Shown piece after piece: positions 13,238-50,608 of a stretch of 50,608 bases of DNA; positions within the stretch are counted from its first letter, which is position 1; every line of letters starts with the position of its first letter. The notes under the pieces are model-generated. The model ran no database searches. It saw only the letters and a program-made list of their open reading frames with translations, and had not been told where the DNA came from. The stretch is from Deltaproteobacteria bacterium (lineage in GTDB: Bacteria; Myxococcota; Myxococcia; Myxococcales; JAHFDP01). Made by a program: the position numbers and the translations under genes. The stretch covers positions 1 through 50,608 of the forward strand of contig JAHFDP010000008.1 of assembly GCA_023248955.1 (NCBI GenBank), given 5' to 3'.

Positions 13238-13491
13238 CTAGGGCGTGTCCCGAAATTCGCACGGGAGCCGAGACGAGTGAGCGTGGGCCGGCGGCGCGCG
13301 CGCGCACGAGGAGGACGCGAAGGCGCACTTTGCAGTGCGTCGAGCGGCCCCCGCAGGAGCCCGCAATCCGATCGGGCGCTTCCAGCGCCACCTTGCGGGC
13401 CGGTCGCGCGTCCAATATGCGCGGCAAGCACGCGTGTAGCCGGCCCGCGATCGCTCGTCGTAGGTCGTGCGAATTTCGGGACACGCCCTAG
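13238..13491 (-). repeat. Structured dispersed repeat, copy 1, with perfect 26-bp terminal inverted repeats
   Basis: A 254-bp block between the converging hutI and histidine-kinase genes. Its ends, 13238-13263 and 13466-13491, are perfect 26-bp reverse complements. The body, read on the minus strand, shares long stretches with copy 2 at 15331-15635. These include the 23-bp core (here 13370-13392, one base different), hairpin H1 (13405-13423) and hairpin H3 (13324-13339, CGCACT...AGTGCG). A 15-bp imperfect direct repeat flanks it (13224-13238 and 13491-13505, 13/15 identical), resembling a diverged target duplication. No gene or transposase is inside. Confidence 0.85.
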
Positions 13492-15330: not shown

Positions 15331-15635
15331 GGCCGGAAAACCACAATTGCCGTTACCTACGACGGCCGAGCGTGGCCCGACTGCTTCAGTGCTTGCCGCG
15401 CATGTTGGAAGCGCGGCCGGCCCGATTGGTGGCGCTGGAAGCGCTCGATCACATAGCGGGCTCGTGCGGTGCCTCCTCAGCGCACCGAAAAGTGCGCTTC
15501 CGGGGGCTCCTCCTGCGCGCCTCGGCCGCGGCTCCTGTAGCCGCGGCACGGCTCGCGCTGTTGCGCGTAGCGGAAGGCCAGCATCCGGGCACCGCTCGAC
15601 CGTCTCGGTTCCACGGCAACTGTGGATTTCCGGCC
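15331..15635 (+). repeat. Structured dispersed repeat, copy 2, with 23-bp imperfect terminal inverted repeats
   Basis: A 305-bp block filling most of the 391-bp gap between ogt and the acyl-CoA synthetase; the other bases (15250-15330) show nothing recognisable. The ends 15331-15353 and 15613-15635 are inverted repeats (21/23) unrelated in sequence to those of copy 1. Between them the body matches copy 1 in the same order: ACCTACGACG, GTGCTTGCCGCGCAT, H1 (15396-15416, CCGCGC...GCGCGG), the 23-bp core (15428-15450), H3 (15480-15497, GCGCAC...GTGCGC) and a TCTCGG near the right end. It stops five bases before the synthetase stop codon. Confidence 0.85.
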
Positions 15636-24302: not shown

Positions 24303-24640
24303 TCCCCTCCCCCGTCAAAGGGGAGGGAATTTGCGAAAAGAGGAGCCAGCCCGGCTTCGCCGGAGGGCGAATATTTCCCCTCCCCACTTTGCGGGGGAGG
24401 GTTAGGGTGGGGGGACCGAAATCGAATGCAAGTGACGCGCACCCCCACCCTGACCCTCCCCCGTCAAAGGGGAGGGAATTTGCGAAAAGAGGAGCCAGCC
24501 CGGCTTCGCCGGAGGGCGAATATTTTCCCTCCCCCCTTTGCGGAGGAGGGTTAGGGTGGGGGGACCGAAATCGAGCGCAAGTGACGTGCACCCCCACCCT
24601 AACCTTCCCCCGTCAAGGGGGACGGAATTTGCGAAGAGAT
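24303..24640. repeat. 149-bp tandem repeat, about 2.3 copies
   Basis: This fills most of the 367-bp gap after the kinase gene. The landmark GTCAAAGG recurs at 24314 and 24463, and as GTCAAGGG at 24612, an exact 149-bp period. Each unit contains a CCCTCCCCC...GGGGAGGG hairpin, a GCCCGGCTTCGCCGGAGGGC hairpin and CCCCACCCTAACCCTCCCCC-type pairing. The third unit is cut after ~30 bp. The gap shows no open frame with coding character. A related short palindrome occurs at 30034-30063. Confidence 0.9.
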
Positions 24641-40447: not shown

Positions 40448-41761
40448 CGCACGCTCGATGGGAATGATCTGCGTGGGTGCTTGTGTCGTCGGCAAGGCGT
40501 CGATTTCCGCGGAGGCCGCGCGCACATCACGTTCGCGCGCTTCGTGGGTCACGATCACGATGGAGACCGGCTCGCCAGGCGCGCCTTCGATCGCCGGAAG
40601 ATGTTCGCGCTGAACGAGCGAAGCGATGGAGACGCCGCGCGCGCCGAGGCTGCCAGCGATTCGCGCGAGCACACCTGGTGCGTCGAGGACCGTGAAGCGC
40701 AAATAGAACGCGCCGATCGTCTCTTCCGCGGGAACGATCGGGAGCGTTTGCGGCGCGTGCACCGCGAGATGCGGAACACGGCCCCGGTGGCCGCCGAGCA
40801 GCGCCCGCGCGGCCTCGATTAGATCAGCGACCACCGCGCTTGCCGTCGGCAGCGCGCCGGCGCCCTGCCCGTGCAGAAACAGCGGCCCCAAAGCCTCGCA
40901 GGAAATCCGCACCGCGTTGAAGGGACCGCGCACACCCGCCAGCAGACTCTGCGCGGGAACCATTGCGGGCGTCACGCGAAGCGAGAGCTTTCCATTTTCG
41001 CGCCGCGCGATGGCGAGAAGTTTCAGCGTCAGCCCGAGATCGCGCGCCGCCGCGTGATCGATCGGCGCCAGGCGAGCGATGCCTTCGGTGCTCACCATCG
41101 ACGGCGACACGCGTGCGCCGAACGCCAGCGCTGCGAGCAGCGTCAGCTTTTGCGCAGCATCGTGACCATCCACGTCGGCGGTTGGATCGGCTTCCGCAAA
41201 GCCCGCGCGCTGCGCTTCACCAAGCGCAGTGGCAAACGATTCGCCTGCTTCCGCCATGCGGCCCAGAATGAAATTCGTGGTGCCATTGACGATGCCGAAG
41301 ATGCTCTGCACACGGTCCGACGAAAGCGCTTCGCGCAGTGTGCGAATGATCGGAATGCCGCCACACACGGCCGCTTCGTAGAGAAGATCAACGCCTGCGT
41401 CACTCGCCGCGGCGAAGAGCTCCGCGCCTGCTTCCGCGAGCAGTTTTTTGTTGGCGGTGACCACGGTTTTTTTTCGCGACAGCGCTTGCAACACCAAGGT
41501 GCGCGCCGGCTCCAAACCACCGACCAGCTCCACCACGATCTCGACGCGCGGATCGTCGATCACTCGGCGCGCATCGGTGACGAGCAGCGTGCGATCCAAT
41601 TCGCCTACCCGCACCCGCGCCAGATCGCGCACCGCCGCGCGCACCACCGAGAGCCGCGCCCCGAGCCGTGATTCGATGTCCGCTGTGTGACGCGTCAGCA
41701 GCGACGCCACGCCACCGCCGACGGTGCCTACGCCCAGGAGACCGACACCGATGGTTCGCAT
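40436..41761 (-). CDS. hom: Homoserine dehydrogenase
   Basis: 441 residues from the ATG at 41761 (MRTIGVGLLGVGTVGGG), an enzyme reducing aspartate semialdehyde to homoserine for Met, Thr and Ile. The Rossmann GVGTVGGG, the VTANKKLLAEAG loop, AAVCGGIPII and the GFAEADPTADVDGHDAAQK substrate block are present. A C-terminal ACT domain (about 345-430, YLRFTVLDAPGVLARIAGSLG) would confer Thr feedback control. The longer frame to 41995 is read-through into repeat copy 3. Its ATG shares one base with the stop of the upstream lipoprotein (TAATG). Confidence 0.96.
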   Translation of the reverse strand: MRTIGVGLLGVGTVGGGVASLLTRHTADIESRLGARLSVVRAAVRDLARVRVGELDRTLLVTDARRVIDDPRVEIVVELVGGLEPARTLVLQALSRKKTVVTANKKLLAEAGAELFAAASDAGVDLLYEAAVCGGIPIIRTLREALSSDRVQSIFGIVNGTTNFILGRMAEAGESFATALGEAQRAGFAEADPTADVDGHDAAQKLTLLAALAFGARVSPSMVSTEGIARLAPIDHAAARDLGLTLKLLAIARRENGKLSLRVTPAMVPAQSLLAGVRGPFNAVRISCEALGPLFLHGQGAGALPTASAVVADLIEAARALLGGHRGRVPHLAVHAPQTLPIVPAEETIGAFYLRFTVLDAPGVLARIAGSLGARGVSIASLVQREHLPAIEGAPGEPVSIVIVTHEARERDVRAASAEIDALPTTQAPTQIIPIERALAD

Positions 41762-42561
41762 TAACGTGGACTCAAGAGTTGTCGATAATTGCCATCGACA
41801 ACTCTTGCCGTTGAAAGATCGGGCCGCCGCCCGCCCCTCTGCGCCGAGTGAATCGGCGCATGTACGGCGCTCACGGGAAGCGCCGTCGGCCCGAGTGGTG
41901 GCGCTGGAAGCGCTCGATCGAACCCCGGGCTCACCCCACCCTCCGACGCGCGCATGATTGCGCGTCGGGGTGAAGAGCTGCCGATTAATCGGCAACTCTT
42001 CACTTCAAAGCTCGCCAGCGCCAATGATCCCTGCGGCGTTTTTTGACCGTTCGCGAGTTCCCTCGTCAGCGCCAGTCGCACCATGCCGACCTCCGGTGCA
42101 TAGGTCCACTCCGTCACCAGCTCGCTGCCTGCATCGATGCGCGTGCGTGCCTGCACAACCAAGCAATCTCGAAATGCGCCAGCCGGAGCCGCGCAGTCCA
42201 CGCCCATTTGCGCCACGCGGTAGTGCTCGATGGCTTGCACGTTGACCACGCTGGTCCAGGTAGCGCCGGGCGCGAGCGGCATTTTCAAGAGATAGCGATC
42301 GCGATCGCGCAAACCTTCGCCGTCGAATGCCAACCGGCCTCCGCCATCGTCGATAAATGTGGCGCCTTCACGCCGCACGACGGTCACTTCGCGATCGACC
42401 TTTTCTCCGAGGAGCTGACCTGAGTAACGCCAATGATTGCCGACCGCGAGCGGGTAGTAGATTGCCGGATTCGGACCGCCGACAGGACCTGCGTCGACCA
42501 CGGGCGCATGTATGCAGGATGCCAGCAAAGTGCACACAACGAGGGCGGCAGCACGAGTCAT
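41761..42561 (-). CDS. Lipoprotein whose C-terminus is encoded by repeat copy 3
   Basis: 266 residues. The lipobox LLASC gives Cys16. The body to about residue 187 (YYPLAVGNHWRYSGQLLGEKVDREV; EWTYAPEVGMVRLAL) resembles small myxobacterial lipoproteins with a beta-rich domain. From about 187 (VKSCRLIGSSSP) to the end the codons lie in the repeat at 41774-42001. This gives an Arg/Pro/Ala-rich tail unlike any domain. The original stop was probably lost by insertion. The new TAA overlaps the hom start as TAATG, and its own start overlaps the HEAT protein stop as ATGA. Confidence 0.75.
   Translation of the reverse strand: MTRAAALVVCTLLASCIHAPVVDAGPVGGPNPAIYYPLAVGNHWRYSGQLLGEKVDREVTVVRREGATFIDDGGGRLAFDGEGLRDRDRYLLKMPLAPGATWTSVVNVQAIEHYRVAQMGVDCAAPAGAFRDCLVVQARTRIDAGSELVTEWTYAPEVGMVRLALTRELANGQKTPQGSLALASFEVKSCRLIGSSSPRRAIMRASEGGVSPGFDRALPAPPLGPTALPVSAVHAPIHSAQRGGRRPDLSTARVVDGNYRQLLSPR
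41774..42001 (+). repeat. Structured dispersed repeat, copy 3, inside the lipoprotein 3' end
   Basis: About 228 bp. It holds the 23-bp core identical to copy 2 (41897-41919), preceded by GGCCCGAGT as in the other copies and followed by CGGGCTC. The ends are self-palindromic: 41774-41806 has a 13-bp stem and a 7-base loop, and 41972-42001 is a 30-bp near-palindrome. They also match each other as inverted repeats (AAGAGTTG[T/C]CGAT). Internal hairpins at 41841-41859 (GCGCCGA...TCGGCGC) and 41944-41967 occupy the places of H1 and H3 in copies 1 and 2. Most of it is read as lipoprotein codons. Confidence 0.8.
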
Positions 42562-43475
42562 GGTCGGGCCGCCACCAATTTCTTGCGGCGCAATTCCTCA
42601 AAAGCCTCATGTGCCGCGGCCCGTACATCGGTATCGTCCGCACCGTGGGCCACCGCAAAAAGATAAGCTTCCGCGTCGTCGCCACCGAGCGTGCCAAGCG
42701 CGTAGGCGACCTGAACCATGAACGTGGCGTCGCGCTTTTCCGAGCGCTGAATCAGCGACCGCACCGCGCGACGATCGCCCAACGCCACCAGCGCACCGAT
42801 GGTTCGGAGCACCACGTCGGGATTGGCGCTCGTTAAATCGTTGAGCAGCGGCTCCAGCGCCGCCGGCCGCCGCCGCTCGGCCAAAACGCGAATGGCGTAG
42901 CCACGCCGGCGCGCATCCGAAGCATGGAGATCGGCAATGAGCGCGGCCTCGGGCTTTCCAGACGCGTCGAGTTGCAACGCAAGACCTTGCGTGGCGTCTT
43001 GCAGCGCGGCCTCCAACGCGGCGGAAAAAGCAGCGCCGTGCGCATCCGGATCCGAACCGCTCACGGCATGCTGACCTGTTCCTTCCGCAAGCGTGCGCTC
43101 GGCGCGCGAGCCGTCGCCGTCGGGAAGCCGAACCAACTCGAGCGCCACGCCCACCTCGGCGCGATTTCGATCGCGATCATGTCCTTCGCCACGCATGCGG
43201 CTTTCGCGCGCAAACGTCACCTCCGCTTGCACCCGATTAATGTCGCTGCCGGCTGGCGGCGCGCCCGAGACAAAACGTCCGCTTTGTTTGAGCACGCGCG
43301 ATACGGCCTGCTCGAAACCGGCGGCGCCAATGCCGAGCGAGGGTGTCGCAGCAAGCGAAGCGGCGTCGACGGAGATGCGTTCAACAGCAACGGCCGGCGA
43401 GCGGGCGCAAGAAAAAGTGGCTACAACACCGAGCGCAGCAAACACGACTTTTCTCGAACGGCGCTCGGAAAACAT
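42558..43475 (-). CDS. Exported HEAT-repeat protein
   Basis: 305 residues. The ATG at 43475 overlaps the HAD gene stop as TGATG. A hydrophobic signal (KVVFAALGVVATFSC) may end in a weak lipobox (Cys23). A Ser/Ala-rich domain (about 30-165) is followed by HEAT-like alpha repeats (about 185-300: RRRGYAIRVLAERRRPAALEPLLNDL; VVLRTIGALVALGDRRAVRSLIQRSE; MVQVAYALGTLGGDDAEAYLF). HEAT arrays bind proteins, so a scaffold in the periplasm or outer membrane is likely. Its stop overlaps the lipoprotein start. Confidence 0.78.
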   Translation of the reverse strand: MFSERRSRKVVFAALGVVATFSCARSPAVAVERISVDAASLAATPSLGIGAAGFEQAVSRVLKQSGRFVSGAPPAGSDINRVQAEVTFARESRMRGEGHDRDRNRAEVGVALELVRLPDGDGSRAERTLAEGTGQHAVSGSDPDAHGAAFSAALEAALQDATQGLALQLDASGKPEAALIADLHASDARRRGYAIRVLAERRRPAALEPLLNDLTSANPDVVLRTIGALVALGDRRAVRSLIQRSEKRDATFMVQVAYALGTLGGDDAEAYLFAVAHGADDTDVRAAAHEAFEELRRKKLVAARP

Positions 43476-44191
43476 CACAACCGGAAATCCTCGACGGCAG
43501 AAATGTTCGCCAGCACATTCACCGGACGGCCCGAGTGATCGGTCTTCAGATGAACGACGTGCGCCGAGGGAAACGCCACGCGATAACCGTTCACGTGCGT
43601 CGGCTCGTTGTCGAACGCGGCGGTGACCGTTCCGTGCGCGCGCAACCGTTCGAACGCGCTCTCCTTCCAAGCGTCGTCGGGAATGTCGAAGGTGGGCTTG
43701 AGCCACAGCTCCGCGCGCGGCTCGCGATCGGGGAGCGGAAAGCCGCCGCGTCCGAGGCTCGAGAGCGTGCCGTTTCGCATCGGTTCGTGACGGCCGGTGA
43801 GATAAACGACGCGCGCACCCGCGGCGATGACGCTTTGCACGAACATCGGCGCGCCCGGAATGGGCACGTCGAGATCGCAATAGTCGCTCGTAAAAAACCG
43901 CGCGCGCCAAAAATCGCGCAGCGCCGGAAAATGCCGCGTTACCTCGGCGTCGGAGAGACCGCAACGCGAAAGTGGAATGCGCAAATCCCAACCGTCGAAA
44001 TGCGCCGGTGCGCACTTTTCCAGAGGCGCAATCCCCGCCGCGGCGCCGAACTCACGAATGATTCGCGCTTGCCGCGGACGGTTGTCGAGTAGCGTGGAAT
44101 CGAGATCGAACGCGGCCACCGCACCGGGAATCGCCAGAGCGTCCAGGGCTGCGCGCAGAACGTGGGCTTGGCGCGGAGAGGATGCGGGCAT
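43475..44191 (-). CDS. HAD-superfamily phosphatase-like protein
   Basis: 238 residues from the ATG at 44191; the ATG at 44209 adds six, and neither has a ribosome site. HAD motif I is AAFDLDSTLLDN (nucleophile and acid/base Asp), motif II is VVYLTGRHE, the Lys is in the KPTFDIP region and the motif IV Asp is in TAAFDNEP. The cap is short. It is a small-molecule or protein phosphatase of unknown substrate. It leads a coupled chain of four genes that ends in hom and is divergent from the S1 gene. Confidence 0.85.
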   Translation of the reverse strand: MPASSPRQAHVLRAALDALAIPGAVAAFDLDSTLLDNRPRQARIIREFGAAAGIAPLEKCAPAHFDGWDLRIPLSRCGLSDAEVTRHFPALRDFWRARFFTSDYCDLDVPIPGAPMFVQSVIAAGARVVYLTGRHEPMRNGTLSSLGRGGFPLPDREPRAELWLKPTFDIPDDAWKESAFERLRAHGTVTAAFDNEPTHVNGYRVAFPSAHVVHLKTDHSGRPVNVLANISAVEDFRL

Positions 44192-50411: not shown

Positions 50412-50608
50412 GTCTCCGGAGTGGGGGACCCGTCCCCCACCGCCCGCCGGCGAAGCCGTCGTGCTCCTTCCCCCTGTGTCTCCGGAGTGGGGGACCCGTC
50501 CCCCACCGCCCGCCGGCGAAGCCGTCGTGCTCCTTCCCCCTGTGTCTCCAGAGTGGGGGACCCGTCCCCCACCGCCCGCCGGCGAAGCCGTCGTGCTCCT
50601 TCCCCCTG
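50412..50608. repeat. 66-bp tandem repeat, at least three units
   Basis: The GTCTCC landmark recurs at 50412, 50478 and 50544, an exact 66-bp period, and the array continues past the window. Each unit has a GTGGGGGACCCGTCCCCCAC hairpin and a CCGGCGAAGCCG palindrome, a 12-mer also in the 149-bp repeat. On the minus strand the array is continuously open, repeating a 22-residue unit (GDGSPTPETQGEGARRLRRR plus two). Minus-strand nrnA-like transcripts would pass through it. Confidence 0.92.

Follow-up and report, generated by a model that had tools for sequence, protein, structure and literature searches.

A MITE-like repeat within the final codons of a lipoprotein gene overlapping hom in a member of the Myxococcales

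In a genome of the order Myxococcales (Deltaproteobacteria bacterium, GenBank assembly GCA_023248955.1), the gene of a predicted lipoprotein runs through a dispersed repeat and ends on the start codon of hom, the next gene. Two questions arise from this arrangement: where does the end of the lipoprotein come from, and did the repeat create the junction with hom or enter a junction that already existed? Here, we analyze the locus within a window that corresponds to the whole stretch of DNA studied, 50,608 nucleotides of contig JAHFDP010000008.1. We consider it highly probable that a MITE-like element inserted just upstream of an old lipoprotein-hom overlap and that a deficit of one base returned the reading frame to the ancestral stop codon.

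A repeat element within a tightly packed gene run

The stop codon of a gene with HEAT repeats overlaps the lipoprotein start as ATGA, and the lipoprotein stop overlaps the hom start by 1 nt as TAATG. Hence, the three genes follow one another in a single, tightly packed run (Table 1), at the end of which homoserine dehydrogenase is complete according to Pfam. The lipoprotein frame carries a lipobox, LLASC, and is made up of native residues 1–186, an element-derived tail, and finally the native last codons with the TAA. These features agree with the original prediction, made from the sequence of the window, of a 266-residue lipoprotein whose stop overlaps hom as TAATG. The tail had been described as devoid of domain character, and a Pfam search with it was indeed empty. 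The repeat had been credited with about 77 codons, close to the count obtained here, 76 net codons and the presumed duplicate of the TGA. The final TAA had been placed inside the repeat; it is in fact host DNA, 8 nt past the right-hand TGA.

The boundaries of the element were defined by aligning its copies in the same genome. The alignment shows sharp ends common to the copies, TGA, AGAGYTGYCGATTAATCG ... ATCGACAACTCT, TGA, with terminal inverted repeats AGAGYTGYCGAT and ATCGACAACTCT. In the window, the repeat with both TGA flanks spans 42002 down to 41772, the last bases of the core being CTCT. The core measures 225–226 nt depending on the copy, contains no transposase ORF and is predicted to fold, over the entire element, as a series of hairpins (−136.6 kcal/mol). 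Rfam gave no match in the window, and the element is therefore not a known RNA family. A TGA stands at both ends of every copy in which both ends can be read; being invariant, it may derive from the target or from the element. The two gene junctions described below (ftsE-ftsX and activator-hydrolase) require exactly one TGA from the host. Nearly all copies have a G right after the right TGA, which suggests TGAG as the target. By its anatomy, the element is MITE-like.

Table 1. Features of the lipoprotein-hom region (window coordinates)
Feature	Position	Strand	Basis
Upstream gene with HEAT repeats	42558..43478	−	ORF list and Pfam
Lipoprotein CDS, 266 aa	41761..42561	−	ORF and 52 orthologues of 175–212 aa
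Left flanking TGA (presumed copy of the target), not in the lipoprotein frame (GAA GTG AAG)	42000..42002	−	
Left terminal hairpin, TGAAGAG..CTCTTCA	41971..42002	−	Fold, −23.2 kcal/mol
MITE-like element core, 225 nt	41775..41999	−	Own-genome copy alignment
Right terminal hairpin, CAAGAG..CTCTTG, just before hom start	41773..41807	−	Fold, −22.4 kcal/mol
One-base deficit, GGCAATTATCG vs. mostly GGCAAYTAATCG in other copies, removing an in-frame TAA	41784..41789	−	
Right flanking TGA (presumed second copy of the target)	41772..41774	−	
Lipoprotein TAA stop, host DNA, overlapping hom ATG as TAATG	41761..41763	−	
hom, homoserine dehydrogenase, 441 aa	40436..41761	−	PF00742 (E 3.8e-60), PF03447, ACT

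The tail and the hom linkage in related genomes

Of 60 genomes from the same order, 54 contain a relative of the lipoprotein, and 52 orthologous loci could be read to their stop codons. These orthologues have 175–212 residues (median 193). As the original prediction had anticipated, all of them end close to residue 187, namely 1–27 residues past the position aligned with it or with the alignment end; a 79-residue extension is found in none of the 52. The element itself was not found in these genomes. Since no orthologue has the extension, the tail corresponds to element DNA, which supports the view that insertion of a small mobile repeat in the last codons of the lipoprotein gave the predicted 76-residue tail. 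Searches of GTDB 220 contigs with lipoprotein peptide patterns and a left-end DNA pattern returned no close relative. No genome of the same family was found either, and the empty site is therefore reconstructed rather than observed.

In 21 of the 52 loci, hom lies directly downstream on the same strand, and in 19 of these its start is located at −4, −1, 0, +2, or +6 nt from the lipoprotein stop. These 19 element-free relatives, many of which belong to one family (f5) and are thus not independent cases, represent three families (f4, f5, and f9) other than that of the window. In seven of them the junction is TGATG, which overlaps by 1 nt just as the TAATG of the window does. When the element and one TGA are removed, the site reads GCG AGC TTT GAA GTG AGT CCA CGT TAA TG, which corresponds to a 190-residue lipoprotein ending in ...LALASFEVSPR* and still overlapping hom as TAATG. 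Thus, the linkage in element-free relatives and the TAATG kept in the reconstruction identify the stop and the overlap as properties of the host. On this comparative evidence, the stop/start linkage to hom is ancestral, and the insertion would have stretched and kept it, not created it.

The predicted Shine-Dalgarno pairing of hom amounts to −2.2 kcal/mol in the window and −4.5 kcal/mol at the reconstructed empty site; in the 19 relatives it ranges from −4.0 to −12.3 kcal/mol (mean −8.8). Given this near-absent pairing, hom of the window may depend on coupling.

One missing base and the readings it allows

The right hairpin of the window copy lacks one A that all other intact right ends read possess. 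The consensus core has 226 nt and, with the duplicated TGA, makes a 229-nt insert that shifts the frame. In several other copies, the frame used by the lipoprotein runs through to GGC AAY TAA in the right hairpin. With a hairpin of consensus length, the lipoprotein would have 258 residues, and its stop would lie 24 nt ahead of hom. In the window copy, this sequence is GGC AAT TAT, so that the net insert is 228 nt, or 76 codons, and the host frame is regained.

The course of events that we favor is as follows. A non-autonomous miniature inverted-repeat element would have entered a TGAG site in the last codons of the lipoprotein (GAA GTG AGT CCA CGT TAA TG), duplicating TGA, at a time when the one-base overlap with hom was already in place. 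A copy of consensus length would have shifted the frame, ending the lipoprotein at the TAA of the right hairpin, 24 nt ahead of hom. The deficit of one base at that TAA puts the window copy back into the host phase, with a 228-nt net insert, and the ancestral TAATG would be where translation ends. Moreover, ribosomes moving through the tail would melt the hairpin that precedes hom, and reinitiation at the hom ATG could follow. The boundaries of the element, the source of the tail, the old linkage in relatives, and the frame arithmetic follow from the sequences; we infer the order of events, any selection for the kept overlap, and translation and coupling as such, and the base may have been lost after the insertion or have been missing already in the copy that inserted.

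Would the kept overlap matter? Reporter tests with six gene pairs showed that a spacing of about 20 nt almost abolishes coupling and reinitiation (PMC10666635), which, together with the weak Shine-Dalgarno pairing of hom, suggests that it would. Enumeration of single changes in the tail showed that no insertion or substitution restores the overlap and that 88 of 238 possible single-base deletions do so. Because a chance deletion would thus succeed in about 37% of cases, selection for the overlap is plausible but not proven.

Other readings of the locus have to be weighed against this one. The original prediction held the insertion responsible for the tail as well as for a new translational linkage to hom. 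Its first half stands, the orthologues being short. Its second half fails, since seven element-free relatives have the same 1-nt overlap and the TAA lies outside the element, and we hold the reading as a whole to be very improbable. It may also be asked whether the missing base is a sequencing or assembly error, in which case positions 41784–41789 would be AATTAATCG and not GGCAATTATCG, the true stop would be the TAA of the right hairpin, and coupling would be lost or weak. The presence of the base in all other intact right ends and the draft state of the assembly speak for an error. However, the copy sits within a long contig between unique flanks, the sequence bears no error mark, and the frame leads back to precisely the stop of the host, which makes this reading unlikely.

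A stronger competitor holds that the tail is translated but meaningless, a neutral read-through at a C-terminus that tolerates additions, with an overlap that is not under selection. It differs from our preferred explanation only in denying selection. The lack of any domain in the tail, the variation of orthologue C-termini by 1–27 residues, and the chance with which a random deletion restores the overlap all speak for it. Against it stand the conservation of the overlap between families and the weak Shine-Dalgarno pairing of the window hom. We regard neutrality as a real possibility, though somewhat less than probable.

Other copies and comparison with known systems

A search of the genome itself, a draft assembly of 116 contigs that is 95.6% complete, gave 61 matches. 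The window copy and seven others are near full length, with 86–92% identity, and about 8–10 copies can be called near-complete. No copy was found outside this genome among 147 genomes of the class and 195 of the phylum, where three genomes gave only local matches of 44–67 nt (78–83% identity). The draft genome yielded no autonomous element with these ends, which could have been lost or have escaped assembly.

In four other copies, the first TGA of the element is the exact stop codon of the upstream ORF, and two of these lie in stop/start overlaps. One full element is found at the ftsE-ftsX junction (G000 C112:53532-53764; L003, L065, and L103). About 18 of 29 relatives have a 4-nt overlap there, in which TGA is the ftsE stop. 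The junction reads ...GTGACGAGCGACGCATGA in one of the closest relatives and ...ATGACGAGTGACGGATGA[element]TGAGACCG in the genome studied here. The element thus sits exactly inside what is likely an ancestral ATGA overlap. Without the element, FtsX starts as ATG AGA CCG CTC TAC (MRPLY); with it, FtsX may start from the ATG of the element, with a predicted junction peptide MATNRQLL-RPLYFLQ. The other full element (G000 C82:16293-16525; L008) occupies an overlap between an activator-like gene, so named from its sequence, and an alpha/beta hydrolase gene, assigned by Pfam. In five relatives this junction is GCGTGAGC, with a 4-nt GTGA overlap; in the genome studied here it is CAATGA[element]TGAGCGAGG, and the predicted hydrolase peptide is MAINRQLL-SEDAVG. 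At both junctions, the right hairpin of the element contains an ATG that shares the reading frame of the downstream gene. The upstream stop would therefore survive at both overlaps, and the element can supply a putative new in-frame start.

Tolerance alone suffices to explain such sites, gene-breaking insertions being lost and insertions at stop codons surviving. A more elaborate proposal is that the family is fitted to operons: entry at TGAG, a retained upstream TGA and an ATG near the right end, in frame with any gene that formerly started at the ATGA overlap, would split coupled genes and destroy neither, and where an insertion falls near a stop outside the overlap, as in the window, a small deletion would restore it. 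We consider this proposal doubtful. Searching the literature for elements inserted at ATGA overlaps gave no result.

Two other repeat types in this genome have the middle of the element in common with it and differ in their ends, which brings the end types on the one core to three. Family B (L011, L012, L015–L017, and L023–L026) has ends AGCCTGTGA..TCACAACCTCT. Its 3-bp flanks vary between copies and match within six of nine (GTG/GTG or GAG/GAG; permutation p about 0.013), a pattern that supports a 3-bp target duplication. The start of several family B copies is no more than about 12 nt away from an upstream stop codon. The window repeats at 13291–13465 and 15355–15529, first taken for two further copies of the same element, belong to a related yet distinct third type, family C (also L028, L030, and L031), with long ends of type CTAAGCCGGAAA.. 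and no more than about 57 nt of the core in common with the element. One end of the family C type adjoins a DDE transposase gene on C95 (L014 and L177). A copy of the element on another contig (G000 C11:20113-22238; L162) is split by a group II intron (Rfam RF02001) with a reverse transcriptase/maturase ORF (Pfam RVT_1 and GIIM). On a further contig (G000 C58:935-1098; L018), an ORF of the opposite strand enters the right end of a shortened copy for about 44 nt and ends in ..LKSCRLIAIDNSCH, possibly a second repeat-derived C-terminus. The window also contains two tandem copies of a 149-nt unit (24305–24602, 95% identical) and, at its end, three tandem copies of a 66-nt unit (50412–50608).

The closest known case is that of the Rickettsia palindromic elements, which insert in frame in protein-coding genes (review PMC10969869). 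The likeness, one of mode of action and not of membership, lies in a short palindromic repeat with many copies per genome that is found in frame in host proteins, as the window copy is with its 228 nt net. In contrast, most copies here are at gene ends or intergenic, no conserved peptide is implied, the lineage is different, and the window insert is C-terminal and returns to the host stop. With bacterial MITEs having short target duplications, the element shares terminal inverted repeats, short TGA flanks, and multiple dispersed short copies without a transposase gene; it departs from them in the three end types on one core and in that no transposase for the window end type was found. REP/RAYT palindromes are also palindromic and lie outside coding sequence, as copies here often do directly behind stop codons. 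However, REPs are 20–40 bp long (PMC3733652), far shorter than the window element. A search for the Y1 (RAYT) transposase PF01797 was negative in the draft genome and positive in 5 of 14 control genomes, so that IS200/REP-type mobilization is ruled out as far as the draft genome goes. Finally, the lipoprotein-hom pair resembles the overlapping gene pairs at which termination-reinitiation is described (PMC6728339, PMC10666635) in its co-directed genes and ATGA/TGATG-type geometry, with the difference that the upstream gene has a repeat-derived end.

The locus thus offers a clean case of mobile DNA turned into predicted protein sequence, in which the frame reveals the evolutionary before and after. 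It also revises the view that the linkage of the genes was the work of the repeat; a likely reason for the tail to extend precisely as far as the host stop is the old stop/start overlap. At ftsE-ftsX and at the activator-hydrolase pair, the repeat interrupts overlapping genes and leaves both readable. The event is of an ordinary kind in an unusually legible form, and the behavior of the element at stop/start overlaps is what most deserves to be followed.
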